The notes below the pieces were generated by a model, which did not search any database, was not told the DNA's origin, and was given only the letters and a program-made list of their open reading frames with translations. A stretch of DNA of 25,483 nucleotides, taken from positions 1 through 25,483 of IMG/VR virus record IMGVR_UViG_3300047494_000265; one strand, 5' to 3'. This document shows positions 4,431 to 25,483 of the stretch, piece after piece. This stretch comes from a virus. Made by a program: the position numbers and the translations under genes. The number at the start of each line of letters is the position of its first letter. Within the stretch, counting starts at the first letter, position 1.

Positions 4431-5285
4431 ATGCTACGTCTCGATATTCCCATCACCAAGGTGGACGCCAAACATCGTCTCGTCACCGGCGTTGCCACGG
4501 CGGAGGTCGCCGATCGCGCCGGCGAGATCTGCGACTACGCCTCGACAAAACCGCTCTATGAGAAATGGTCGGAGGCGATCTCCGCCTCGTCCGGCGGCAA
4601 ATCGCTCGGCAATCTCCGCGCCATGCACGGCCAGGTCGCGGCGGGGAAGGTGACGGCCCTCGCCTTCAACGATGAAGCCAAGCAGATCGAGATCTGCGCC
4701 AAGGTCGTCGACGACGCGGAATGGGCCAAGGTGGAGGAGGGCGTCTACACCGGTTTCAGCCAAGGAGGCACCTATGCCCGGCGCTGGACGGACGATCAAG
4801 GCGCGCGCCGCTACACCGCCGAGCCCCATGAAATATCGCTGGTCGATCTGCCCTGCCTCGCCGAAGCGCGGTTCGAGATCATCAAGGCCGACGGCTCGCA
4901 CGAATGGCGTCGGTTCAAGGAGAGCGATGGCATGGCGAAGGTCGGGGCGCGTAACAGCGCGGAGGATCAATCCCGCATCCAAGCCATGCACGACACCTCG
5001 GTCGATCTCGGCGCGACCTGCGGCGCGCAGAAAGGGCTGGGCCGCCACGCGGACGATCTCGCCAAGCGACTTGATCGGCTCGCGGAGATATTGAGCGCTT
5101 CCCTGGCCGATGTGTCCAAGCGGCTGGCGGCGATCGAAAGCCAGCCGCAGCCGTTGCCGTTCGCCGGGCCGGCGCGGCCCGTCGCCAAGCACGAGGACGG
5201 GGCGGCCGCTTACGATGCCTTGCTGGCCGATCCGGCCGCCCTGTCCATCCTCGCCATCAAGCTCGCGCAGCGCCGGACACGCTGA
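4431..5285 (+). CDS. Prohead protease with C-terminal scaffold-like segment
   Basis: 284 aa, start ATG 4431 with AAAGGAG at 4419-4425. It matures the capsid by cleaving scaffold and capsid precursors inside the prohead. The N-terminal two thirds fit the HK97/XkdF-type (herpesvirus-like fold) protease: His66 in RAMHGQV and Ser136 in EPHEISLVDLP are the likely catalytic pair. From about residue 170 the protein changes to a helical region (MHDTSVDLGATC, then AKRLDRLAEIL) ending in a Pro-rich linker and a short helix. This is typical of a fused scaffolding part, so a separate scaffold gene is not needed. It sits between portal and capsid genes, as in RcGTA. Catalytic residues are assigned by motif position, not alignment. 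Confidence 0.85.
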   Translation: MLRLDIPITKVDAKHRLVTGVATAEVADRAGEICDYASTKPLYEKWSEAISASSGGKSLGNLRAMHGQVAAGKVTALAFNDEAKQIEICAKVVDDAEWAKVEEGVYTGFSQGGTYARRWTDDQGARRYTAEPHEISLVDLPCLAEARFEIIKADGSHEWRRFKESDGMAKVGARNSAEDQSRIQAMHDTSVDLGATCGAQKGLGRHADDLAKRLDRLAEILSASLADVSKRLAAIESQPQPLPFAGPARPVAKHEDGAAAYDALLADPAALSILAIKLAQRRTR

Positions 5286-5296
5286 CCGACCGGTTT

Positions 5297-5397
5297 CCCC
5301 TCCTTCGGGAGGGGATGGGGTGGGATCCGCTCTCGGCGCTCGATCACCAGCACAGATGTGACGTGAGACCAGCGAGACGCCCCGCGGATTCCACCCC
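5297..5397. repeat. Intergenic hairpin and inverted repeat before the capsid gene
   Basis: The 225-bp gap between protease and capsid genes holds a perfect 7-bp hairpin with a TTCG loop (CCCCTCC/GGAGGGG, 5297-5314). A second inverted pair follows: GGGGTGGGATCCGC (5317-5330) and GCGGATTCCACCCC (5384-5397), one mismatch, 53 bp apart. The second arm is followed by GCTTTTTT. It could act as a processing or termination signal that adjusts capsid expression, or be another dispersed chromosomal repeat. I see no small gene here. Confidence 0.6.
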
Positions 5398-5510
5398 GCT
5401 TTTTTCGATCCATCGAGCCCGGCCGAACGGTCTCTGCCTCGCCCAACGGCGCGTCGGAGGGACGGACGCGCTCGATCTCGATTCCGATCCTTCCAACCTG
5501 GAGCGAACAT

Positions 5511-7013
5511 ATGCCCGCCATCGACATGCAAGAGGTCATGCGTAACTTGAGGAGCGCGCAGCAGAAGCCGCTCGGCAGCCTTGCCAAGAGCACCTTCACC
5601 GAGAGCGCCAGCGCGACGTCTGGTTTGACCTTCTACGATCTCGAACTCGGCGCCAAGTTTCTCTATCCAGTGCTGACTCCGTTGCGCAACCTGATCCCCC
5701 GCGTCAGCGGCAAGGGTGGCATTCAGGCCAATTGGCGCGCCGTCACGGCCATCAATACCCAGGGGCTGCGTTTCGGCGTGTCCAACGCCAATCGTGGCGG
5801 CGTCCTGGCCGTCGCGACACAGGATTACTCAGCCGCGTACAAGGGCATCGGCGTCGAGACCAGCGTCGATTTCGAGGCGCAATATGCTGGCCAGAATTTC
5901 GATGACATCCGTGCGGACGCGGCCCGCACGGGCCTCGAATCCTTGATGCTCGGCGAAGAGGCGATGATCCTGGGCGGGAATGCCTCGCTGGCGCTTGGCA
6001 CGACGCCCACGCCGACCCTTAGTGACGTCGGCACCGGCGGCACGCTCGCTGCCAACCTGGCGCTCAGTGTGATTTGCGTCGCCTTGACCCACGATGGTGT
6101 CGTCAACGCCTCGCTGACCGGCGGGATTCAAGGCCAGATCACGCGGACAAACGCCGACCTCACGACGGATACGTTCGGCGGCGGTGCCGCCAAGCGCTCC
6201 CTCAACGCAACCATCACGACCGCCAACGACGGAAACGCCACGCATCAGATCCGGGCCTCGGTCGTGCCGGTCACCGGCGCGTTCGGCTATGCTTGGTTCT
6301 GGGGGGCCGCCGGATCGGAAGTGCTGGGGGCGATCACATCGATCGCGTCCCTCGTCATCGCGGCGGCGGCGGCCGGCGCGCAGACGGCGGCCTCGCTGGG
6401 AACCGCCGACAATTCCGTCAATCCTCTCGCGTTCGACGGTCTGCTGACGCAGGCGCTCCGCCCGGGATCCGGCGCGAGCGTGCTCGCGCAGTTCCAGGGT
6501 ACGGCGGGCATCGGCACGCCGCTGACCTCCGACAACGCCGGAGGGATCGTCGAGATCGACGCGATCTTGAAGCAGATGTGGGACACGCGCCGCCTCTCCC
6601 CGGATACGATCTGGGTCTCCTCGCAGGAGGCCTTGAATATTTCGCGGAAGATCGCGACGGGCACGGCGGCCACCGCGCAACGTTTTGTCCACGACGTGTC
6701 GGACAACCTCGTCGGGGGCGGTGTCGTCGTGCGCACCTATCTCAACCGCTTCTCGATGCAGGGCGGCAGCGCCATCGATATCAAGGTCCATCCCAACATG
6801 CCCGCCGGCACGCTGCTGATGACGACCGCGACGCTGCCCTATCCGTTGGCGGGCGTCGGCAACCTGATGCAGATCCGCGCGCGCCAGGATTATTACCAGA
6901 TCGAATGGCCTCTGCGCACGCGCCGTTACGAATACGGCATCTACGCCGACGAAGTGCTGCAACACTTCTTCCCGCCGGCGATGGCCGTCATCACAAATAT
7001 AGGCAACGGTTGA
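5511..7013 (+). CDS. Major capsid protein, HK97-fold with probable Ig-like insertion
   Basis: 500 aa, start ATG 5511, GGAG at 5500-5503. It is called by position (directly after protease and scaffold), size, and sequence style. The N-terminal part has TFYDLELGAKFLYPVLTPLRN and RVSGKGGIQANWRAV near residues 40-80. The C-terminal part has SPDTIWVSSQEALNISRKI (about 363-381) and a final IEWPLRTRRYEYGIYADEV, typical of phage capsid subunits. Residues about 162-300 are Thr/Ala/Gly-rich and strand-forming (TGAFGYAWFWGAAGSE), and look like a surface Ig-like insertion interrupting the core. That explains a length well above a minimal HK97 fold. No long N-terminal delta domain is visible, in line with the scaffold being fused to the protease. 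Confidence 0.88.
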   Translation: MPAIDMQEVMRNLRSAQQKPLGSLAKSTFTESASATSGLTFYDLELGAKFLYPVLTPLRNLIPRVSGKGGIQANWRAVTAINTQGLRFGVSNANRGGVLAVATQDYSAAYKGIGVETSVDFEAQYAGQNFDDIRADAARTGLESLMLGEEAMILGGNASLALGTTPTPTLSDVGTGGTLAANLALSVICVALTHDGVVNASLTGGIQGQITRTNADLTTDTFGGGAAKRSLNATITTANDGNATHQIRASVVPVTGAFGYAWFWGAAGSEVLGAITSIASLVIAAAAAGAQTAASLGTADNSVNPLAFDGLLTQALRPGSGASVLAQFQGTAGIGTPLTSDNAGGIVEIDAILKQMWDTRRLSPDTIWVSSQEALNISRKIATGTAATAQRFVHDVSDNLVGGGVVVRTYLNRFSMQGGSAIDIKVHPNMPAGTLLMTTATLPYPLAGVGNLMQIRARQDYYQIEWPLRTRRYEYGIYADEVLQHFFPPAMAVITNIGNG

Positions 7014-7023
7014 GGGACGCGAC

Positions 7024-7233
7024 ATGCGATACCGTGTCCCCGATGACTGCGCTGGCGTGACCCATGCCGGCTCGACGCTCGACCGGGCGTCCGACGGAAC
7101 GGTGGAGGCGGCGGAATCCGCCGCCGCCGCGCTTGCGCCGCACGGCATCGTGCCTGCGACGGGCGATCCTGGCACCGAGACGAAGGCCGTGTCGGTGCGA
7201 TCCAGGCGCGATGAGCGCAGGATATTGCGATGA
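7024..7233 (+). CDS. Small capsid-associated protein, function unknown
   Basis: 69 aa starting MRYRVPDDCAGVTHAG, 10 nt after the capsid stop. Its TGA overlaps the next start (ATGA at 7230-7233), a sign of translational coupling and of a real gene. Short proteins of this style (a beta hairpin with a Val-Pro opening and a segment ending near Ala-His-Gly) occur next to capsid genes in many siphoviruses and may be decoration or neck accessory proteins. That link is by size and place only. The last 20 residues are basic. Confidence 0.65.
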   Translation: MRYRVPDDCAGVTHAGSTLDRASDGTVEAAESAAAALAPHGIVPATGDPGTETKAVSVRSRRDERRILR

Positions 7234-8000
7234 GCGCGCCCAACGATCTCACGACGCTGGCGGCGGTCAAACAATGGCTTGGACTCTCGAGCGACGCGGA
7301 TGACGCATCGCTCGACAGCCTCGTGTCCGCGATCAGTCAGGCCATCCTCGCCGACCTCGGCCGTCCCTCGATCCTGCCCACGAACCATACGGAGATCCTC
7401 GACGGCGGGAACGCCGACGAGCTCGTCCTGCGACATTGGCCCGTGACCGAGGTTCTTTTCTGCACGGCCGACGGCGGTGCCCTCCCCGAATCTTCGGGGC
7501 CGGGGCATGGCGGTTTTGCCCTCGAGGCGGCGGAAACGGCGCCCCCCGGCGCCATGCAGCGTTTGTTTTATCGTGGCGGCGCTTTTCCGCCCGGTCGGCG
7601 GAATGTCATGGTGGCCTATCGGGCCGGCTACGAGATCCTCGGGGAAGCGGCGACGGTCCCTGCTTCCGCGCCCTATATCGTGACGGCGGCCGCACCGTTC
7701 GGCGCCTGGAGCCTGGATACGGGTTGCACGGGCGCGAGCGGGGGCTACAGCGTCACCAACGGCGTCTATTCCTTCAGCGCGGCTGCGGCGGGGCAGCCGA
7801 TCATGCTGAACTACGGTTACGTCCCGCGTGATCTCACGCAGGCGGCGAACGAATGGATCGCCGACCGTTACGCCGCGAGAAGCCGTATCGGCCAGAGTGC
7901 CAAGACGCTGGGCGGCCAGGAGACCACGAGCTTCGTCGTCAAGGCGATGCCGGATGTCGTGTCCAGGCTGCTTCAGCCCTACAGGAGCGTCGCCCGATAA
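7230..8000 (+). CDS. Head-tail connector (HK97 gp6/YqbG-like) with beta insertion
   Basis: 256 aa, overlapping the previous gene by four bases. The N-terminal helix pattern LTTLAAVKQWLGL, then DASLDSLVSAISQAILADLGR, is the usual start of connector proteins that sit under the portal. The C-terminal end resumes with LTQAANEWIADRYAARSRIGQ, also typical. Between them, residues about 142-197 form an extra beta-rich segment (APYIVTAAAPFG, then GGYSVTNGVYSF and LNYGYV). A similar segment occurs in the tail tube protein at 9235. The family's usual length is about 190-200 aa; the insertion explains the excess. It corresponds by position to RcGTA gp6. Confidence 0.82.
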   Translation: MSAPNDLTTLAAVKQWLGLSSDADDASLDSLVSAISQAILADLGRPSILPTNHTEILDGGNADELVLRHWPVTEVLFCTADGGALPESSGPGHGGFALEAAETAPPGAMQRLFYRGGAFPPGRRNVMVAYRAGYEILGEAATVPASAPYIVTAAAPFGAWSLDTGCTGASGGYSVTNGVYSFSAAAAGQPIMLNYGYVPRDLTQAANEWIADRYAARSRIGQSAKTLGGQETTSFVVKAMPDVVSRLLQPYRSVAR

Positions 8001-10539: not shown

Positions 10540-11784
10540 ATGACCGACGACGTCACCATCACGTTCACCGCGGATATCTCCGATCTGCAGCGCGGGATCC
10601 AGCAAGCGACGAGCGGCATTGCGGACGCGACCGCGACCTTGAAGTCGGGCGCCGCGCAAGTCGCGGTGTCCTTCGCCGATCTCACGCGGGCTTACGCCGC
10701 CGGCGTCGCGCAGCGGTTGGATCTCGTCAAGGCGGGGAGCGACCAGGAACTTGCCATCGCGCGGGCCGGCGACCGCGCGGAGACCGATATCCTACTCGAC
10801 GGGATCAAGCTGAAGGAATCACAGATCAAGGAAGAGGCGCAGCTCTCGCAGCTGTCGCACGATGAGGAGCGCGCCGCGCTGCTCGCGCTGGAGGCGGACC
10901 GCGAGGCCATCGAACAGCGTCATCTCAGCTTCCTGCAATCGACCTACAAGGACAATGCGGTGGCCTTCGCCGGGGTGCAACGCCAGATCGACGAGTTCGC
11001 CGCGCAATCGGCGATCAAGCGTCAGCAGATCGAGCAGGCTTACGCGCAACAGGTTTATGCCGACTATCGCCGCACCTTCGAGCAAATTGGCACGAGCCTG
11101 TCGCAGCAGGTGACGGGCCTCATCAGCGGACAGGAGACCTTGCGGCAGGCCGTGGCAAACGTGTTGCTGTCGATCATCCAGGATTTTATCGCGGCGCGCA
11201 TTCGCGTCGTCGCCGATTGGGCGGCCGGGGTCGCCGCCGAAAGCGCGGCAACGACGGCCGGTGAGGCGACGAAGACCGCTGCCGTCGTCGCCGGTACGGC
11301 GGCGCGGACGAGCGCGCAGGAGACGGCCGCTACGGCCTCGATCGCGTCGTCGCTCGTCGCCGTCGGCAAGAGCATCATCGCCTCGGCCGCCGAGACATTC
11401 GCCGGTATTTTCGGGTTTCTTTCCCCTGTGCTGGGGCCCGCCGCCGCCGGCCCCGCCGTCGCCGGGCAGGCGACAGTGCTCGCCGCGGGCGCCGGCCTAC
11501 CATCCTTCGCCGTGGGTGCCTGGAGCCTGCCCGCCGACATGGTCGCGCAGGTGCATAAGGGTGAGATGATCGTTCCGGCCGACCCGGCGTCCCAGATGCG
11601 GGCCGCAATGACAGGCGGCAGCGGCTCCGGCGCCGCGACCCACGTGCATTTCAACGTGTCCGCGATGGACTCGGGGGACGTGAAGCGCTTCTTCGCGGCC
11701 AACAGCCGGGCGATTCTCGGCGCCATCAACGATGGCGTCCGCAACGGTTCGCACCTCGGCCTTGCCAAGCTCGGGCGGGCCTGA
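10540..11784 (+). CDS. Tail tape measure protein
   Basis: 414 aa. It fixes tail length and is packed inside the tube. It opens TITFTADISDLQRGIQQATSGI, as such proteins do, followed by long charged helices (about 60-170), an Ala-rich middle with two hydrophobic stretches (about 230-325), and the conserved C-terminal segment FAVGAWSLPADMVAQVHKGE, then MIVPA. At the usual 1.5 angstroms per residue it predicts a tail of roughly 60 nm, shorter than lambda's. This is similar in style to GTA gp11 proteins. The stop overlaps the next start (TGATGA at 11782-11787 region). No lysozyme or peptidase domain is visible. Confidence 0.9.
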   Translation: MTDDVTITFTADISDLQRGIQQATSGIADATATLKSGAAQVAVSFADLTRAYAAGVAQRLDLVKAGSDQELAIARAGDRAETDILLDGIKLKESQIKEEAQLSQLSHDEERAALLALEADREAIEQRHLSFLQSTYKDNAVAFAGVQRQIDEFAAQSAIKRQQIEQAYAQQVYADYRRTFEQIGTSLSQQVTGLISGQETLRQAVANVLLSIIQDFIAARIRVVADWAAGVAAESAATTAGEATKTAAVVAGTAARTSAQETAATASIASSLVAVGKSIIASAAETFAGIFGFLSPVLGPAAAGPAVAGQATVLAAGAGLPSFAVGAWSLPADMVAQVHKGEMIVPADPASQMRAAMTGGSGSGAATHVHFNVSAMDSGDVKRFFAANSRAILGAINDGVRNGSHLGLAKLGRA

Positions 11785-11999
11785 TGACCGATCCGTGGGG
11801 CGTCAACCTTCTGCCGGCTTCCAACGAATGGGTCTACGATACCTTGCCGCACCGCGCCGCCCGTCTCGGCGAGAGTGCGGCGCGGCCGCAGAATCGCTAT
11901 GCCGGCGCCGCCGGGATGAAGACCGATTATTCACTGTCGATCGACCAGCTGCAGGCGGCCTACCCAGGGTGCAAGACGGTCGCCCTCGTTGTCGCCTAG
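11784..11999 (+). pseudogene. N-terminal fragment of TIM-barrel tail protein, cut by TAG
   Basis: 71 codons from ATG 11784, which overlaps the tape measure stop. It begins TDPWGVNLLPASNEWVYDTL and runs to KTVALVVA, then TAG (11997-11999), then in the same frame FGNSTDATQCRIYP and onward into the large ORF starting at 12144 (360 bases after 11784, same frame). GTA-type TIM-barrel proteins have Trp-Phe-Gly at this spot, so the stop is best read as TGG to TAG, one G-to-A change. The fragment alone cannot fold as a barrel. The intact gene would span 11784-14162, 792 residues. The alternatives, suppression of amber or a sequencing error, cannot be separated here. Confidence 0.85.
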
Positions 12000-12143
12000 T
12001 TCGGGAATTCCACCGATGCGACCCAGTGTCGGATCTATCCGTCCACCACTTTCATCGGTGGGTCGAGCGAGGTCTTCGCCCAGGGTACATGGAGCGCGGA
12101 GCCCTGGCGCTGCTCCGGACTCACACAAGCCTCGCCGGGGCTC

Positions 12144-14162
12144 ATGCCGATCTCGCAGATCGACGGCGGCTTCGTCTATGGCGGCACGCCGTCCGATCCG
12201 TCGATCGTGCGCTGCATCCGTGACCTTAAGGCGCGCGGCTTCCGTGTCACCTTCTATCCGTTCATCCTCATGGATTGCGTCGGTTATCCTTGGCGCGGGC
12301 GCATCACCTCGCCGGGCGCGGATGTCTCAGCCGCCGCGAGCGCGGCCGTGACCACATGGCTCGGGACGGCCGCGCCCACGCAATTCGTGCGGGACACCAC
12401 GAATCTGACCGTCGGCTACGCGGGATCACCGACGGACTGGACGTATCGTCGCATGATCCTGCATTACGCGAACTTGTGTATCGTGGCCGGTGGCGTGGAT
12501 CTGTTTTTGATCGGTTCCGAATTTCGTGGCCTCGAATCGATACGTGGACCGGCCTGGACTCCGGGCGGCACGACACGGGGCGATGGAAGGGTCGTCTGGG
12601 ACTATCCGTTCGTCGCAGGCCTCGCGCAGCTGGCCGAAGACGTGCGCGGCATCTTCGATGGCGCCGGGTTGACGCGCGATACAATTGGTCTGCACAACCT
12701 TATCGCCTATTCGGCGGATTGGTCGAACTGGATGGGACTCCAACATCCGGGCGCAAACGGCCAATGGCCACATCTCGACCAGCTTTATGCCTCCGCGGCG
12801 ATCGACCTTGTCAGCTTCGATAATTACTTGCCGCTGAGCGATTGGACCACGGGAACCGGTGGGCTTGAGGCGATCAATTGGGGGGCTCCCGCACCGACGA
12901 GCTGGCCCGCAACGGCTGCCACGATGAATGGGCTTGGCCTCTCCGGATCGCCTATTCTCGCGAGCAAGCCCTATCTGAAGGCCAATATCGAAGGGGGCGA
13001 GAAGTACAACTGGTTCTACGCCGATTCGACGAATAACGGGTTGGGTCTCGATCCCAACGGGTCCGCGTTGCGGGTCTCTCGCCCCGAGGGGGACCGGCTC
13101 GGGCAGATTCGTACGCCTTATCGGGCGGGGCAGCAGGTCCTCGCCAACAAAATGCTACGCTGGTGGTGGAACAATCCACATCAGGCCGTCTACGACACGG
13201 GCGATGGGCAAGGCTTCGTGCCCCGTGGGGCGTATACGGCTTGGGTGCCGCAATCCAAGTCGATCACCTTCGCCGAATATGGGTTCCCCACCTGCGACCG
13301 CTGCACCAATCAGCCGAACGTCTTCTACGATCCGAAATCAAGCGAGAGCTTCACGCCGTTCTGGTCGGCGTGGGAGCCAGCTGACGGGGGGACCTACCGG
13401 CCCGTGCGGGACGATACGCTGGCGGCCCTGGCGCGCGAGGCGATCGTCGAATATTGGACGGTCGACGGTCACAACATGGCGGGTACCGCCGGCGTGACGA
13501 TGATCGAGCCGACCTTCATGTCGGCTTGGAATTGGGACGCGCGGCCGTTTCCGATCTTTCCGCAATCGAACGTGTGGGCCGACACCGGCAATTGGCGGGC
13601 GGGCACGTGGATCGGCGGGAAAGGTCCGTCCGAGCCGCCAGCCTTGCCGGACACCGCGCCGATCGACACGGCGGCGCCGATCTTTCCGACGCTGCAGGGC
13701 CTCGGTTGGTCGGTGACCTACCGCCCGACCTTCGCGACGGGCACGGCGCCGCATGTGTCGGGCCGCGAAAGCCGCGTGGGGCGCAACGCGACGCCGCTTT
13801 GGTACATCGATCTTCGCTTCGATGTTTTGTCGGACGCCGTGCGGGCCGACGTGCAGACGCTTGTTGGCTTCTATGCCGCGGTGGCGGGGCAGTCGGCGCC
13901 GTTTCGTGTCGCGGTGCCGGGGGCTCTCGGCATCGGCGACACGACGCTGATCGACGATGGGTTCGCGAGTGTCCCCGTCGATCAGGCCAGCGATGAAGGC
14001 CTCGCATCGTCGCCGATCACGCTGGTCGAGGATGATGGCGCGGCGTCCGAGCCGGCGATCTCGATCCCGTGCCGCTTCGCCGATGATCAAATCGATGCCG
14101 AAGAGTTCGCGCAGCATCTCTTCGCCAGCCGATCGCTCACGCTGCGCATGGTGAGGGTCTGA
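12144..14162 (+). CDS. GTA TIM-barrel-like tail protein fused to a DUF2460-like domain (downstream of amber)
   Basis: 672 aa from ATG 12144, but this Met (in GLMPISQ) is an internal residue of the interrupted gene and no good ribosome binding site precedes it. Residues about 1-480 are the glycoside-hydrolase-like TIM barrel known from RcGTA gp15 (ISQIDGGFVYGGTPSD, LIGSEFRGLE, NLIAYSADWSNW, VSFDNYLPLSDW, WNWDARPFPIFP). It probably helps bind or penetrate the cell envelope. From about residue 510 the protein changes to a DUF2460-like domain (IFPTLQGLGWSVTYRPTFAT, HVSGRESR, TLVGFYAAVAGQ) closely similar to the next gene. Near residues 605-640 are three copies of a Gly-x-Ala-Ser motif, 13 residues apart. 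In RcGTA this barrel is joined to the hub protein; here it is not. Confidence 0.83.
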   Translation: MPISQIDGGFVYGGTPSDPSIVRCIRDLKARGFRVTFYPFILMDCVGYPWRGRITSPGADVSAAASAAVTTWLGTAAPTQFVRDTTNLTVGYAGSPTDWTYRRMILHYANLCIVAGGVDLFLIGSEFRGLESIRGPAWTPGGTTRGDGRVVWDYPFVAGLAQLAEDVRGIFDGAGLTRDTIGLHNLIAYSADWSNWMGLQHPGANGQWPHLDQLYASAAIDLVSFDNYLPLSDWTTGTGGLEAINWGAPAPTSWPATAATMNGLGLSGSPILASKPYLKANIEGGEKYNWFYADSTNNGLGLDPNGSALRVSRPEGDRLGQIRTPYRAGQQVLANKMLRWWWNNPHQAVYDTGDGQGFVPRGAYTAWVPQSKSITFAEYGFPTCDRCTNQPNVFYDPKSSESFTPFWSAWEPADGGTYRPVRDDTLAALAREAIVEYWTVDGHNMAGTAGVTMIEPTFMSAWNWDARPFPIFPQSNVWADTGNWRAGTWIGGKGPSEPPALPDTAPIDTAAPIFPTLQGLGWSVTYRPTFATGTAPHVSGRESRVGRNATPLWYIDLRFDVLSDAVRADVQTLVGFYAAVAGQSAPFRVAVPGALGIGDTTLIDDGFASVPVDQASDEGLASSPITLVEDDGAASEPAISIPCRFADDQIDAEEFAQHLFASRSLTLRMVRV

Positions 14163-14776
14163 TGGCGCCGCCGGTCTTTCCGACGCTCGCCGGCCAGGGC
14201 TGGTCGGTGCACAAACGACCAAGCTTCGCGACCCGTGTCGCGAGCCACGTGTCGGGACGCGAGGTACGCAGCGCCTATTACGCGCAGACGCTCTACGAGT
14301 TCGAGCTGACCTACGACGCGCTGCTCGCCTCATCGAACCCGGCTCTCGCCGGCCTTGGCGCATCTTCGTTGCAGACCCTGCTTGGGTTTTACCTCGCCTG
14401 CCAGGGGCAACTCGGCACGTTTCTTTATGTCGACCCCACGGATTCGGCCGTGATCAACCAGCCTGTCGGATCAGGTGACGGCAGTACCGCAGCCTTCACG
14501 TTGCAACGGACGCTGGGTGGCTTCAGCGAGCCGGTCTCCTGGGTCACCGGCGTCAATGGCGTCTTCGTCAATGGCGCCGCGCAGTCGGGCTGGGCTTTGG
14601 CAACGCCGAACATCCTGACCCTGGCCGTGCCGCCTCCCACTGGCGCAGTGGTGACGGCGAGCTTCGCCTACGCCTTCGCTTGTCGCTTCCTCGACGACCA
14701 ACAGGACTTCGAAAACATCATGAGCGGGCTCTGGCAATTGAAGGCGCTGAAATTTCGCAGCGTGCGGACGTCGTGA
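14162..14776 (+). CDS. Distal tail protein, DUF2460 family (RcGTA gp12-like)
   Basis: 204 aa; ATG 14162 overlaps the previous stop (TGATGG). The core pattern VFPTLAGQGWSVHKRPSFAT, HVSGREVRSAYY, ELTYDALL, TLLGFYLACQGQLGTFLYVDP and final FLDDQQDFENIMSGLWQ identifies the DUF2460 family, which forms the ring between tail tube and hub. Residues about 100-180 hold the common insertion of this family (GDGSTAAFTLQRTLGG to ASFAYAF). The C-terminal part of the preceding protein is a diverged relative, so the phage has two such domains in tandem. Confidence 0.9.
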   Translation: MAPPVFPTLAGQGWSVHKRPSFATRVASHVSGREVRSAYYAQTLYEFELTYDALLASSNPALAGLGASSLQTLLGFYLACQGQLGTFLYVDPTDSAVINQPVGSGDGSTAAFTLQRTLGGFSEPVSWVTGVNGVFVNGAAQSGWALATPNILTLAVPPPTGAVVTASFAYAFACRFLDDQQDFENIMSGLWQLKALKFRSVRTS

Positions 14777-15642
14777 GGGCGGCGTCCCCGGCGCTTCTCG
14801 CCTATCTCGGCGCGCAGCGAACCGCGAAGGATGCGCCGCTGCTGATGGCGGATTGCTTCACCTTCACGCTGCGGACCGGCACGGTCCTGACCTATACCAA
14901 CGCGGATGTGCCGATCACGCTCGGCGGTGTGACTTTCGCCGCCAACAGCGTGCTTGTCGATGGGCTTGCCTTCAATTGCAAGGCGGGGCTCGACGTGGAC
15001 CAGCAGAAGATCACCCTGGCGGCGCGGCCGACGGACACGGTCGGCGGCGTACCCTTCCTGGTGGCGTTGGCGCGCGGCGTGTTCGACGGCTGCGAGGTGC
15101 AGCGCGAGAGAGTTTTCCTGTCGGGTTGGACGGTGCCGCCGATCGGAAGCGTCATCCTGTTCAAGGGCCGGATGACGACCGTGGATCAGATCGGTCGCAC
15201 CAGCGCGCAGGTCACGGTCGCCTCCGATCTCGTGCTGCTCGACATCGACATGCCACGCAACTTCTACCAGTTGACCTGCGTCCATACGCTGTACGACTCT
15301 GGCTGCGGATTGACCAAGAACGCCTTCGGCACGAACGGGACCATAGGCGCCGGCCCGACGACCGCGACCATGCCCTGGAGCGGCGCCGCGGCGGTGCACA
15401 CGCAGGGCACGATCCTTTTCACATCGGGTGCCAACGCAGGCCTCGCCGCGACCATCAAGAGTGTCGCGCCCGGCGCCGCGTTGAGCCTGAGCTATCCGCT
15501 TTACGTGCCTCCCGCCCCGGGCGACGGTTTCATCGCCTACCAGGGTTGCGACCATCGGCTGAACACCTGCCGAGCCCAGTTCAACAACGTGTCGAACTTC
15601 CGGGGGTTTCCCTACATACCGCCGCCGACGAGCGCTTATTGA
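14773..15642 (+). CDS. Tail hub protein, DUF2163/BR0599-like (RcGTA gp13-like)
   Basis: 289 aa. GTG 14773 is chosen because it overlaps the previous stop (GTGA) and begins RAASPALLAYLGAQ; a longer reading from 14680 would lie wholly inside the preceding gene. The N-terminal DUF2163 part has LLMADCFTFTLRTGTVLTYT and DGLAFNCKAGLDVDQQKI. The C-terminal part has four cysteines at 169, 178, 259 and 266 (TCVHTLYDSGCGL and QGCDHRLNTCRAQF) and ends FRGFPYIPPP, the BR0599 signature. Related hub proteins, such as lambda gpL, carry an iron-sulfur cluster on such cysteines, so this one probably does too. That ligand role is inferred. Confidence 0.9.
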   Translation: MRAASPALLAYLGAQRTAKDAPLLMADCFTFTLRTGTVLTYTNADVPITLGGVTFAANSVLVDGLAFNCKAGLDVDQQKITLAARPTDTVGGVPFLVALARGVFDGCEVQRERVFLSGWTVPPIGSVILFKGRMTTVDQIGRTSAQVTVASDLVLLDIDMPRNFYQLTCVHTLYDSGCGLTKNAFGTNGTIGAGPTTATMPWSGAAAVHTQGTILFTSGANAGLAATIKSVAPGAALSLSYPLYVPPAPGDGFIAYQGCDHRLNTCRAQFNNVSNFRGFPYIPPPTSAY

Positions 15643-15710
15643 CGCATTCATAATCGCCTTCGGGACCGTCATTCGGACGGTGAGATCGATCAAACCAAGT
15701 GGTTGATGAC

Positions 15711-16175
15711 ATGATGAGACACCAAACCACCCCGGCCGCCATCGTCGCGGCGGCGCGGGACTGGATCGGCACGCCTTATCATCCCTGCGCGGACGTCCGT
15801 GGCGCGGGGGTCGATTGTGGCATGTTGATCGTCCGCGTCTTCGTCGACAGCGGGTGCTGCCCGCCATTCGATCCACGCCCCTACCCGCCAGACTGGCATC
15901 TGCATCGCTCGGAGGAGCGCTATCTCGGCTTCGTCCGCCGCAATTGTCGCGAGCGGGGCGCGGAGGAGGCGGCGGAGCCGGGCGACATCGTTGTCTTCCG
16001 CTTCGGTCGGTGCTGGGCCCATGGCGGCATCGTCACGAAGGCCACGCCCTTGACTCTCGTCCACGCCTTCTCGCCCGCCGGCTGTGTGCTGGAGGAAGAG
16101 GTCGCCCGCAACGCCATGCTGAGCGCCCCCGCTCGGGCGCCGCGTGTCTTCAGCGCTTGGGCTCAGCGCTCATGA
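15711..16175 (+). CDS. NlpC/P60 family tail peptidase (RcGTA gp14-like)
   Basis: 154 aa from ATG 15711; ATG 15714 and GTG 15699 are alternatives and the ribosome binding site is weak. It is a cysteine peptidase that cuts peptidoglycan stem peptides when DNA is injected. The catalytic Cys36 is in GVDCGMLIVR, His104 in WAHGGIV, and a third polar residue is His118 in TLVHAF. The opening ARDWIGTPYHPCADVRGAG is typical. Its stop overlaps the next start (ATGA, 16172-16175). A 68-bp gap before the gene holds a 6-bp hairpin (ACCGTC/GACGGT, near 15664-15681) and little else. Confidence 0.93.
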   Translation: MMRHQTTPAAIVAAARDWIGTPYHPCADVRGAGVDCGMLIVRVFVDSGCCPPFDPRPYPPDWHLHRSEERYLGFVRRNCRERGAEEAAEPGDIVVFRFGRCWAHGGIVTKATPLTLVHAFSPAGCVLEEEVARNAMLSAPARAPRVFSAWAQRS

Positions 16176-17488
16176 GTTTCCTGCGTCCGTCCGTCTCCTC
16201 CCCGGTCGTCACGCCGCAATATACCGGTCTGCAGGTCCAGACCGCATCGAGCGCGCTGCCGATACCGATCGTCTACGGCACGGCCCGTGTGGCGCCGAAC
16301 ATCATCTGGGCCAACAACTTTCAGTCGGTCGCGCAATATTCCCAGCCGACCGGCGGAAAGGGTGGCCTGTTCTCGCCATCAAGCGGGCCGCAGCTCACCG
16401 GCTACGACTACACGAGCGCCCTCATCATGGGCCTCTGCGAGGGGCCGATCGCCAATCTGGGGACGGTGTACAACGGGCAGAGCACATCGGATGCGACGTC
16501 GCTCAACATCTCCTTCAACGCGGGTACGACGCCGCAGGCACCTTGGGGCTATCTGGCGGCAAATTATCCAAATCAATCGATCGGCTACGGGGGCACGGCG
16601 ATCGCCGTCTCGTCCAACTTCGATCTGGGCTCCAGCGCTTCGATCGGCAGCCTCTCTTTCGAGGTCGCCGGGCTGCTCGCGGGCAGCGGCACGGTGGACG
16701 CCAATGACGCCGACCCAGCCGCGATTCTCTACGACTTTCTGACGAGCGCGCAATATGGTGTCGGTTTCCCGGGCGCCTCGATCGATGCGACGACGCTTTA
16801 TGGATTGGGCGGAGATGCCTCGTATCAGACCTATTGCCGGGCGCATCGGCTCGTTCTTTCGCCGGCCTTGACGAACCAGGAGGCGGCGAACTCCATCCTC
16901 GCCCGTTGGCTTCAGCTTACGAACGCGACGGCGGTCTGGTCCGGTGGCCGGCTCAAGATCATGCCATACGGGGACGCCCCGGCGTCCGGTACGCAGTACA
17001 ACCATTCGACCGTCACCTATCAACCCGTCACGGCGCCGGTCTACGACTTGACCGATGACGATTTCATCGGCGATCCAAGCGCGGACCCGCTTGTGGTCAC
17101 GCGGTCGGATCCTTATTCGGCACCCAATGTCGTATTCCTCGAGGCATTGGATCGTTCCAACCAATACAGTCCCACCACGATCGAGGCCCGCGATCAGGGA
17201 TCCATCGAACAGACAGGTCTGCGCACCGGGTCGACGATCACCGCGCACGAGTTCTGCAACCTGACGATCGCCGCGACGGCGGCGCAACTCATTCTTCAGC
17301 GCGGGCTCTACATCCGCAACACCTACGCCTTCAAACTATCGTGGGAATATTGCCTGCTCGAACCGATGGATCTGGTCACCCTGACCGACGCCGGGCTGGG
17401 CCTCGCCAAGACCCCGGTGCGGATCGTCGAGATCGCCGAGGATGGCGACGGGCTCCTCTCCGTGATCGCCGAGGAATACCCGGGCTAG
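16172..17488 (+). CDS. Central tail hub protein, N-terminal part (gp15/J-like, Phage-tail_3), ends at in-frame TAG
   Basis: 438 aa from ATG 16172, overlapping the peptidase stop. It contains the conserved core of the baseplate hub that closes the tail and forms the central spike: SALPIPIVYGTARVAPNIIW, LIMGLCEGPIANLG, a middle domain with NQEAANSILARWLQLTNA and GGRLKIMPYGD, and a final LLEPMDLVTLTDAGLG with IAEEYPG. Homologous hubs run on for several hundred residues. Here TAG (17486-17488) follows Gly438, and the same frame continues without a break in the next entry. The intact protein would be 959 residues. No TIM barrel is present in this protein, unlike RcGTA gp15. The protein may be truncated, suppressed, or truly split. 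Confidence 0.88.
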   Translation: MSFLRPSVSSPVVTPQYTGLQVQTASSALPIPIVYGTARVAPNIIWANNFQSVAQYSQPTGGKGGLFSPSSGPQLTGYDYTSALIMGLCEGPIANLGTVYNGQSTSDATSLNISFNAGTTPQAPWGYLAANYPNQSIGYGGTAIAVSSNFDLGSSASIGSLSFEVAGLLAGSGTVDANDADPAAILYDFLTSAQYGVGFPGASIDATTLYGLGGDASYQTYCRAHRLVLSPALTNQEAANSILARWLQLTNATAVWSGGRLKIMPYGDAPASGTQYNHSTVTYQPVTAPVYDLTDDDFIGDPSADPLVVTRSDPYSAPNVVFLEALDRSNQYSPTTIEARDQGSIEQTGLRTGSTITAHEFCNLTIAATAAQLILQRGLYIRNTYAFKLSWEYCLLEPMDLVTLTDAGLGLAKTPVRIVEIAEDGDGLLSVIAEEYPG

Positions 17489-19051
17489 GTGGGCACGACG
17501 ACGGGCTTCGTGGTGGACAGTGCGACCAACAGCCCGATCAACCGCACGATTGCTCCGGCGCCGGTCAATCCGCCGGTCATCCTTGAGCCGCCGTCGGATC
17601 TCACCAATGGCATGCCGCAGCTTTGGGTGGGGCTATCGGGCGGGACGGGCGGCGTCGCCGATCCGAACTGGGGCGGCGCGGCGATCTTCGCCTCGACCGA
17701 TAACGCGACCTATACACAAGTGGGCGCGACCACGGGTCCAGCGCGGCAGGGCGTCCTGACCGCCGCGCTCGGCGCGCCGCCGGGTGCGCCGAGCGATGTT
17801 TTGACGGTTTCGTTCGCGCAGAGCGGCGCCGTGGTGCTGGCCGGCGCGCAGCCGACCCTCGTTGTCGTCGACGGCGAGATCTTGAGCTTCGCGTCCGCGA
17901 CCTTGACGGCCGCGAACAGCTACAGCCTCGGCGGTCTCGTGCGTCGGCGTTACGGACAGCGCGGCGGCCCGCATGCGATCGGCGCGCAGGCTCTGATCCT
18001 CGATCAGGCGGTCTTCACCTACACCCTTCCGCAGGCGGCGATCGGCCGACCGCTGTGGTTCAAGTTTGCCAGCGTCAACACATTCGGCCGCGCGATGCAG
18101 GACCTCTCGACCTGCACGGCCTATTCGGTCGTACCCGTCGGCTCCGGTGTCTTCGGACCGGTGGCGCAGGCGCTCGCCACTGGCACGTCCCTCGACGAGG
18201 GTCTCGCCTCGACGGCGATCAACGAGACCGACGACTTCGGTCTGGCGTCCGACGTCTATACCGAGACCGTCGACATGGGCCTTGCGTCCGAGGCGGCAGC
18301 CGCGTTGGCCGTGCAGTCCGGCGGGACTGGCGCGACATCGCCGACGCTCGCGCGCGCCAACATCGGCGCGGCGGCGGCCGGGGCCAACGGCGACATCACC
18401 AGCCTGAGCGCCTTGACGGCGGCAACGATCAACAAGGCCGGGGTGACCGATACCGCCTCGATCCTCTACAAAACCGGCGGCTCGGCGCGCGCCACGGCTG
18501 GGCTGCTTGCGAGCGATCGCTATCGTGTGTCGGTCTCGTCAACGGGGTCGAGTTTCACACAGGCGCTCGATATCGACCCGGCGACGGGTCATATCGGCCT
18601 CGCCGGCTATACAGCGGACGCCAATAATGCGCTCGGCATTCTCGGCACGAATTTTCTGTTCGGCGCCTCGGTCGACTCCTGCCGTTTCACGTTCAACAAG
18701 GTGGCGGCGGCTTACGACGCGAGCCTGACGTTCGAGACGGGCTTTTCGGCCCGTGCTTTGGCGGGCCTGCTCGGATCGGACGGCTATCAGTTGAAGGTCT
18801 CGCCGGACGGATCGACCTTCTACCAGGTGTATGTCGTCGATCAAACCAACGGGAACGCGGCGTTCAAGGCGCTGCTCTCCGTCGCGAGCTATGCCGTCGC
18901 CGCGCTGCCGGCGGCGTTCAACGGCGCGCTTGCCTTCGCCGCCAATGGTCGCAAGAGCGGCGAGACGGCGGGGGCGGGTACTGGCGTCCTCGTCGCTTTT
19001 TCCAATGGACAATGGCGACGGCTCTCCGACGACACCGTCGTCGCCTCTTAA
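17489..19051 (+). CDS. C-terminal continuation of the tail hub, fibre-like
   Basis: 520 aa from GTG 17489, the codon directly after the TAG and in the same frame. GAGGAA (17471-17476) lies 12 nt upstream, a possible but distant ribosome binding site, so reinitiation is conceivable. The beginning (APAPVNPPVILEPPSDLT, then PQLWVGLSGGTGG) is what normally follows the hub core in these proteins. Residues about 235-270 carry three copies of a Gly-Leu-Ala-Ser motif 13 residues apart. A tail-fibre repeat follows (SGGTGATSPTLARANIGAA, 277-295). Then come two similar modules near 320-365 and 405-450 (SARATAGLLASDRY and SARALAGLLGSDGY). The last residues VLVAFSNGQWRRLSDDTVV are a common ending of tail-tip proteins. 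It probably displays fibre-attachment or receptor-contact domains. Confidence 0.82.
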   Translation: MGTTTGFVVDSATNSPINRTIAPAPVNPPVILEPPSDLTNGMPQLWVGLSGGTGGVADPNWGGAAIFASTDNATYTQVGATTGPARQGVLTAALGAPPGAPSDVLTVSFAQSGAVVLAGAQPTLVVVDGEILSFASATLTAANSYSLGGLVRRRYGQRGGPHAIGAQALILDQAVFTYTLPQAAIGRPLWFKFASVNTFGRAMQDLSTCTAYSVVPVGSGVFGPVAQALATGTSLDEGLASTAINETDDFGLASDVYTETVDMGLASEAAAALAVQSGGTGATSPTLARANIGAAAAGANGDITSLSALTAATINKAGVTDTASILYKTGGSARATAGLLASDRYRVSVSSTGSSFTQALDIDPATGHIGLAGYTADANNALGILGTNFLFGASVDSCRFTFNKVAAAYDASLTFETGFSARALAGLLGSDGYQLKVSPDGSTFYQVYVVDQTNGNAAFKALLSVASYAVAALPAAFNGALAFAANGRKSGETAGAGTGVLVAFSNGQWRRLSDDTVVAS

Positions 19052-24520: not shown

Positions 24521-25483
24521 ATGCCCGATCAAAAGCCCGACGCCACCAGCCATCGTCTCATCGAGCTCTTTCTCGACATGATCGCGGCGGAGCGCGGCGC
24601 CGCCGTGAACACGCTGGAGGCGTACCGGCGCGACCTCGTCGCCTATGCGGCGGGGCTCAAGGCGCGGGGGCGGGGGCCACTCGACGCCGGCACGGACGAT
24701 CTGCGCGCCTATCTCGCGACGCTGGACGCGCTGGGGTTCAAGGCGACCTCGGCGGCGCGCAAGCTGTCGGCCATCCGCCAGTTCCATCGGTTCCTCGTCG
24801 CGGAGGGCGAGCGGAAGGACGACCCGGCGGCGATCCTCGAAGGGCCACGCCAGGGCCAGCGGCTGCCGAAGATCCTGAGCGTCAAGGAAGTCGACCGTCT
24901 GCTTGGGATCGCCAAGGAGGGGCTCGATCTCGAGACGCGGCCTGTCGGCGAAAGGTTGCGCGCGGCGCGGATGAACGCGCTCCTCGAACTGCTCTATGCC
25001 ACCGGCCTGCGCGTCGGTGAGTTGGTCTCCCTGCCCCGGCACGCGCTGCGAGGCCGCGACCCGCTCATCGCCATCAAGGGCAAGGGCGGCCGCGAGCGGC
25101 TCGTCGTCGTGTCCGAGCCCGCGCGTCAGGCCGTCGATCTCTATCGCGCCCTGCTGAAGCGACGTCACCCCGGCGCGGTCGAAGGTCCTTGGCTGTTTCC
25201 GGCGGACAGCGATTCCGGCCATCTGACCCGGCAGGCCTTCGCGCGCGACCTCAAAATGGTTGCCGCCGCCGCCGGCATCGCCACCCATCGCGTCAGCCCG
25301 CACGTGCTGCGCCACGCTTTTGCCAGCCACTTGCTGCAGAATGGCGCCGACCTGCGGATCGTGCAGGAATTGCTCGGCCACGCCGACATCGCGACGACGC
25401 AGATCTACACCCACGTCCTCGACGAGCGCATGAAGGCCATGGTCCGCGACCTTCATCCGATGGGCGATAATCCCGAAGGCTGA
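24521..25483 (+). CDS. xerD: Tyrosine recombinase XerD-like
   Basis: 320 aa, ATG 24521, GGAGG about 13 nt upstream (GGTGAG nearer). The N-terminal SAM-like domain is at about 10-95 (FLDMIAAERGAAVNTLEAYRRDL). The catalytic domain has Arg164 (TGLRVGEL), Lys188 (KGKGGRE), His261 and Arg264 (HVLRHAFASH), His287 (LLGHADI) and Tyr296 (TTQIYTHV): the complete active site. Length and motifs match chromosomal XerD, which resolves chromosome dimers with XerC at dif. It is the last gene of the window, in the same direction as the phage genes. It could be the host gene flanking the prophage or a phage-borne Xer-type integrase; sequence style favours a housekeeping XerD. Confidence 0.87.
   Translation: MPDQKPDATSHRLIELFLDMIAAERGAAVNTLEAYRRDLVAYAAGLKARGRGPLDAGTDDLRAYLATLDALGFKATSAARKLSAIRQFHRFLVAEGERKDDPAAILEGPRQGQRLPKILSVKEVDRLLGIAKEGLDLETRPVGERLRAARMNALLELLYATGLRVGELVSLPRHALRGRDPLIAIKGKGGRERLVVVSEPARQAVDLYRALLKRRHPGAVEGPWLFPADSDSGHLTRQAFARDLKMVAAAAGIATHRVSPHVLRHAFASHLLQNGADLRIVQELLGHADIATTQIYTHVLDERMKAMVRDLHPMGDNPEG

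Follow-up and report, generated by a model that had tools for sequence, protein, structure and literature searches.

In a 25,483-nucleotide stretch of viral DNA (IMG/VR record IMGVR_UViG_3300047494_000265, analyzed over its whole length and called the window here), a second DUF2460 domain probably anchors a putative GH113-like hydrolase at the distal ring of the tail. The window encodes two adjacent DUF2460-type distal tail proteins (Dit). One is a plain Dit, and in the other the Dit domain stands at the C-terminus of a protein whose N-terminal part is the TIM barrel otherwise found in the tip protein, or megatron, of RcGTA. The window represents part of a temperate siphophage genome, with the large terminase gene at its left end, an integrase gene (24521-25483) at its right end, and portal, head, and connector genes and a tail module between them (Table 1). 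This gene set, including the integrase, sets it apart from a gene transfer agent (GTA), which is a cluster without integrase and not a phage genome.

Table 1. Features of the tail module in the window
Feature	Position	Strand	Basis or remark
Tape measure protein, 414 aa, directly upstream of the fused gene	10540..11784	+	PHROG 2854, E 2e-16; position conserved in relatives
Fused gene: TIM barrel, linker, and second DUF2460	11784..14162	+	Profile matches; one in-frame TAG in the record
Peripheral/TIM-barrel region, GH113-like	11793..13622	+	Corresponds to RcGTA megatron about 213-765
In-frame TAG in the fused gene	11997..11999	+	Trp (AWFG/SWFG) in intact relatives
Pro-rich linker GKGPSEPPALPDTAPIDTAAP	13623..13679	+	Sequence
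Second DUF2460/Dit domain, fused clade, short form	13680..14159	+	Profile, tree, model
Three 13-residue repeats DDGFASVPVDQAS / DEGLASSPITLVE / DDGAAS... replacing the Dit insertion	13953..14049	+	
Companion DUF2460, the plain distal tail protein (Dit)	14162..14776	+	PF09343, E 6e-40; 8gtc_G, 6tba_6B
Baseplate hub: attachment domain and BR0599 domain	14773..15642	+	PF09931, PF09356
NlpC/P60-type tail peptidase	15699..16175	+	Weak, 18.2 bits, below cut-off; position conserved
Tip protein part 1: megatron adhesin-like and central domains, without barrel	16172..17488	+	Ends at in-frame TAG 17486-17488
Tip protein part 2: Rcc01698_C-like region, 13-residue repeats, fiber-like C-terminus	17489..19051	+	

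The fused gene had been listed as an ORF of 672 aa (12144..14162), which is cut at its N-terminus because of the in-frame TAG upstream. The frame is open from the ATG at 11784, which overlaps the stop codon of the tape measure gene (ATGA). Position 12144 was rejected as the true start, since relatives reach ~120 residues further upstream and the TAG accounts for the cut. In the alignment, every relative that is intact over this stretch has Trp in place of the TAG. The TAG in the tip gene splits what is a single ORF in most relatives, which have Ser, Gly, Asn, or Ala at that site. Because both genes hold an in-frame TAG, the window copy of the two is evidently either damaged or affected by sequencing errors, which counts against the anchoring role in this particular record; intact versions are plentiful elsewhere. 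No second copy of the exact DNA pattern around the TAG of the fused gene was found that would tell a sequencing error from a mutation. A use of TAG as a sense codon in this phage is unsupported: the two TAGs replace different residues (Trp in one case, Ser or similar in the other), TAG terminates other ORFs of the window, and no tRNA gene was found.

The N-terminal half of the fused protein is of the megatron peripheral type. In the 672-aa ORF, residues 99 to 473 match the Pfam domain GTA_TIM (E 1e-100), and the PF13547 score is 337 bits against a cut-off of 27. The megatron profile NF048004 (GTA_megatron) is matched over positions 213-755 by relatives L008 and L053 and over 320-755 by the N-terminally cut ORF of the window; the score of 358 bits lies below the 800-bit cut-off for a full-length equivalog, the peripheral region alone being covered and the rest residing in the tip protein. 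A profile of the fused family aligns over its first ~620 positions with the megatrons of RcGTA (6tba_8A, 221-765) and R4C, and over positions ~651-807 with the distal tail proteins of the same two particles. When the full-length model of the Beijerinckia relative L050 was searched with Foldseek, it matched the R4C megatron (8gtc_M, E 6e-26) and GH113 beta-mannanases (E 2e-5 to 1e-3). These alignments show that the barrel corresponds to the RcGTA megatron's peripheral TIM-barrel region in its entirety. Two putative catalytic Glu residues (E247 and E499 in the numbering of the L002 protein) are invariant in the family and kept in the window. The PF22612 score is under the cut-off in the window and over it in L215 and L221. 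With its predicted GH113-like hydrolase fold, the barrel probably binds or cuts a surface polysaccharide, although invariant glutamates alone are no proof of catalysis. The RcGTA barrel itself has no assigned function (PMC13420450).

The tip protein of the window contains the complementary part of the megatron. Its first part matches 6tba_8A over residues 49-204, PF13550, and NF048004 over 46-201; the second part follows in the same frame, and in most relatives the two are one gene. Because NF048004 splits between the tip (46-201) and the fused relatives (213-755), the tip protein reads as a megatron minus its peripheral domain. A barrel in the tip protein was found in none of 121 fused loci, and the gene order is conserved in relatives: tape measure, fused protein, Dit, hub, NlpC-type peptidase, tip. 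The hub start given in Table 1 is the point at which many relatives begin aligning. The first-pass annotation was right in placing the barrel on its own polypeptide upstream of the DUF2460 gene.

The same annotation had proposed that the C-terminal segment of the fused protein is DUF2460-like and has motifs in common with the next protein, and both points hold far beyond chance. Residues 515 to 589 of the 672-aa ORF match a part of the Pfam DUF2460 profile (positions 6-75 of 205, E 8e-12), and the match of the companion ORF is nearly full length. PF09343 scores are 45 to 51 bits for the fused C-domain and 137 bits for the companion (cut-off 30.4), and all 32 C-domains scanned, those of the window and 31 relatives, match this family (best 1.7e-33). 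The two Dit domains of the window are 33% identical (E 4e-19), with FPTLQGLGWSV in the fused and FPTLAGQGWSV in the plain one, HVSGRE in both, and TLVGFY facing TLLGFY. The C-domain model has a core pLDDT of >90, and its best PDB matches are almost all phage Dit or tail-tube proteins, with low scores (best E 1.8e-3, TM 0.27-0.39) that weigh against the anchoring role. Profile and tree (see below) thus identify the segment as a genuine DUF2460/Dit domain, with weaker support from the fold. The window's copy lacks the usual middle insertion, while most relatives have the full form of ~200 aa. In the L050 model, linker residues 581-626 have pLDDT values mostly under 40. Barrel, fused Dit, and companion are all under purifying selection, with dN/dS of about 0.06-0.31. 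Both the C-domain and the companion fall into PF09343 with Rcc01695 and align with the Dit sequences of RcGTA and R4C; unlike Rcc01695, they score below the NCBI TIGR02217 cut-off and occur as two paralogues per phage, one of which has a ~620-residue N-terminal domain.

Two scans of IMG/VR and one of genomes, together with fetched genome regions, gave the 121 loci with the fused ORF, which represent about 105 distinct barrel sequences. A separate companion Dit is present in 118 of the loci; the other three are L215, L221, and L191, the last of which ends before that point. Of 62 GenBank phages with a match to the barrel, not one reaches 80% coverage of the fused protein, and the fusion is absent from the GenBank phages searched. 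The GTDB 220 scan yielded seven genome contigs with the fusion; four belong to MAGs and the others to Beijerinckia sp. L45, Rhodoblastus acidophilus, and Roseiarcus fermentans. Of 298 genomes sampled from the GTDB family that includes Beijerinckia, 31 have a frame of suitable length, and 12 of these were checked by domain. In samples of the order (397 genomes) and the class (289 genomes), the fusion was seen only in the centre genome; few candidates were scored per genome, and these counts are lower bounds. The genomes found to have the fusion thus belong almost exclusively to the family in which GTDB places Beijerinckia. Whether such a fusion is already common and described, as had been asked at the outset, receives a divided answer: it is common in one bacterial family, and the open-access papers searched gave no account of a second Dit with a megatron-type barrel. 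N-terminally decorated DUF2460 proteins and evolved Dits are already known, while a megatron-type barrel on a second Dit is apparently undescribed in the open-access literature.

The DUF2460 trees unite the fused domains in one group (support 98-99) and gather the companions, along with a few single Dits, in another. The trees place fused and plain Dits as two sister groups from one old duplication. Sister modules (L256-L262) have a single Dit, a barrel-less tip, and no fusion. In L256 and L257, from another genome of the class, the single Dits branch before the split between fused and companion domains; a larger FastTree puts them with the companions instead, with low support. The Beijerinckiaceae prophages L260-L262 have a companion-type Dit, a state that arose by loss or by gain of the fusion elsewhere. 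Because these prophages do without it, the fused gene is not essential, which is a point against the anchoring role. Barrel-less tips covering 95-99% of the window's tip protein are also found in Acinetobacter 5W, Brevundimonas Polewnik, and Pseudomonas KT1 phages. In the barrel tree, which has a midpoint root only, the fused barrels are set apart from all megatron barrels as a branch of their own.

These trees bear on the origin of the barrel, which had been described as detached from the hub. Movement of the barrel out of the megatron within the phage lineage of the window would agree with the barrel boundaries, which equal those of the megatron peripheral domain, and with a tip protein that lacks exactly that part. 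This history is unlikely, and the detachment lacks support as an account of events, given that single-Dit sister modules and the phages of Acinetobacter, Brevundimonas, and Pseudomonas already have barrel-less tips, and that the fused barrels branch outside the megatron barrels. For the same reasons, gain of the barrel by a duplicated Dit appears the simpler and more likely course than removal from the hub, and transfer from a foreign megatron is possible. Five genomes of the same order (L155, L156, L159, L161, and L162) encode stand-alone barrels of about 734-789 aa, likewise on a polypeptide of their own. These have no DUF2460 domain and are nested within the megatron barrels, and therefore stem from a separate relocation event; the proteins end in a DKQYxDFFxxIEF-type tail.

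Because the C-domain is a DUF2460/Dit domain, the predicted placement of the barrel changes from the megatron to the distal ring, and this proposal of the first-pass annotation follows from domain identity. The tail ends of RcGTA and R4C contain six copies of Dit, three of the hub, and three of the megatron (PMC7296036, PMC10276861). The N-terminus and long loops of the RcGTA Dit touch the hub and the megatron (PMC7296036); therefore, N-terminal cargo on a Dit would sit near the baseplate, as the RcGTA barrel does. In the scheme that we favor, a single duplication of Dit in a siphophage lineage, whose present members occur mostly in Beijerinckiaceae, would have been followed by the gain of an N-terminal barrel in one copy. 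The N-terminal ~620 residues would be a GH113-like barrel of the megatron peripheral type that acts on a surface polysaccharide, tied by the flexible Pro-rich linker to the duplicated Dit domain. Once in the virion, this domain would dock the barrel at the distal ring beside the plain Dit, the hub, and the barrel-less tip. A precedent for N-terminal cargo is offered by the Brevundimonas phage Polewnik, in whose tail module a single DUF2460 protein, bearing such cargo, was seen. Alternatively, DUF2460 might serve as a weak docking site for a soluble or loosely held enzyme that does most of its work after being shed. Such a mode of action has been proposed for TspA of RcGTA, a detachable tailspike that degrades biofilm and touches Dit, tube, and megatron (PMC13420450). 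For the fused protein we consider it improbable, as the anchor comprises an entire Dit domain under purifying selection and the gene lies inside the tail operon.

If the fused protein is anchored at the distal ring, its arrangement there may take several forms. In L215, L221, and L231, no separate Dit is present and the barrel is joined to a companion-type Dit. The linkers of these proteins hold an apparent start Met of the companion (MPFIFPSLPG, MPVGNFPTLPG, and MPFNFPALPG); on the simplest reading, a deletion took out the second Dit and left the barrel on the only one. L231 has one frameshift, and because one metagenome is the source of both L215 and L221, the loci may represent one event. 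A ring made purely of barrel-bearing subunits may also work, as these putatively functional phages suggest.

An alternating hexamer of three fused and three plain Dits would carry three barrels, as in RcGTA, and the two gene products would settle the mismatch between sixfold and threefold symmetry. It would suit the two adjacent, co-inherited paralogues in 118 of 121 loci, as well as the Dit rings of RcGTA and R4C, which face a threefold complex of hub and megatron (PMC7296036, PMC10276861) and in RcGTA have odd and even subunits of different conformation (PMC7296036). Yet L215, L221, and L231 have the barrel on their only Dit, and L260-L262 manage with one plain Dit; because each of these has one kind, two kinds of Dit are not obligatory, and we regard the alternating hexamer as rather unlikely. 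An obligate form of it, in which duplication and not two conformers would settle the sixfold-to-threefold change, is more doubtful still; if true, the enzyme copy number would be fixed at three. A stacked arrangement, with the fused protein in a ring of its own, or a partial substitution, with the fused protein placed at random in the Dit ring, would allow up to six barrels. A barrel on the only Dit would mean that a ring tolerates six of them, provided that these phages are functional, but the frameshift in L231 and the common metagenome of L215 and L221 weaken this argument. Such an arrangement is a fair possibility, short of an even chance.

Many tip proteins end in a 13-residue repeat (consensus about DDFGLASDPYxxxI-DLGLAS), with gaps of exactly 13 in 28 of 36 cases. 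It occurs at 13953-14049 and 18194-18290 in the window and also in L041, L050, L181, L222, L226, L239, and others. Within the fused protein, the repeat is found in the Dit insertion, at the C-terminus (L003, L016, and L035), or in a barrel loop (L222 and L231). It is perhaps a docking tail common to tip and fused proteins. A domain of ~125 residues (LAEDSSTGxHY...), without a Pfam match, lies within the insertion loop of Dit, with two copies in L215, and also in the tip protein (L215:5950-9456; L222:2297-3454 and 4912-7791), and looks like the binding module of an evolved Dit. L037 has a barrel locus that matches only residues 75-580 of the fused protein and contains an internal stop; it is probably another decayed copy.

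Evolved Dits with carbohydrate-binding modules are well described. To our knowledge, those described have binding modules inserted into a single Dit. The fused protein resembles the evolved Dits of lactococcal and other siphophages in using Dit as a carrier for a sugar-acting domain, and differs in that a probable hydrolase is fused to the N-terminus of a second Dit. The Polewnik protein (816 aa; L170:4015-6465) also has a large N-terminal addition on DUF2460; there, the addition is a glycine-rich domain of the ALK/LTK type, with no barrel, and the tail module showed no further DUF2460 protein. The window shares with Rcc01698 of RcGTA (NF048004) and the R4C megatron the domain and its boundaries (about 213-765), the two putative catalytic Glu residues, and the tail module; their barrel lies within the tip protein, whereas here it is N-terminal to Dit on a separate protein and the tip is barrel-less. 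The megatron-type barrel would thus be a module capable of transfer and of attachment to another ring of the tail. Related prophages with the barrel in the tip, on a second Dit, on the only Dit, or absent provide a natural comparison, in which the function of the barrel, and how far the Dit ring tolerates cargo, can be tested directly.
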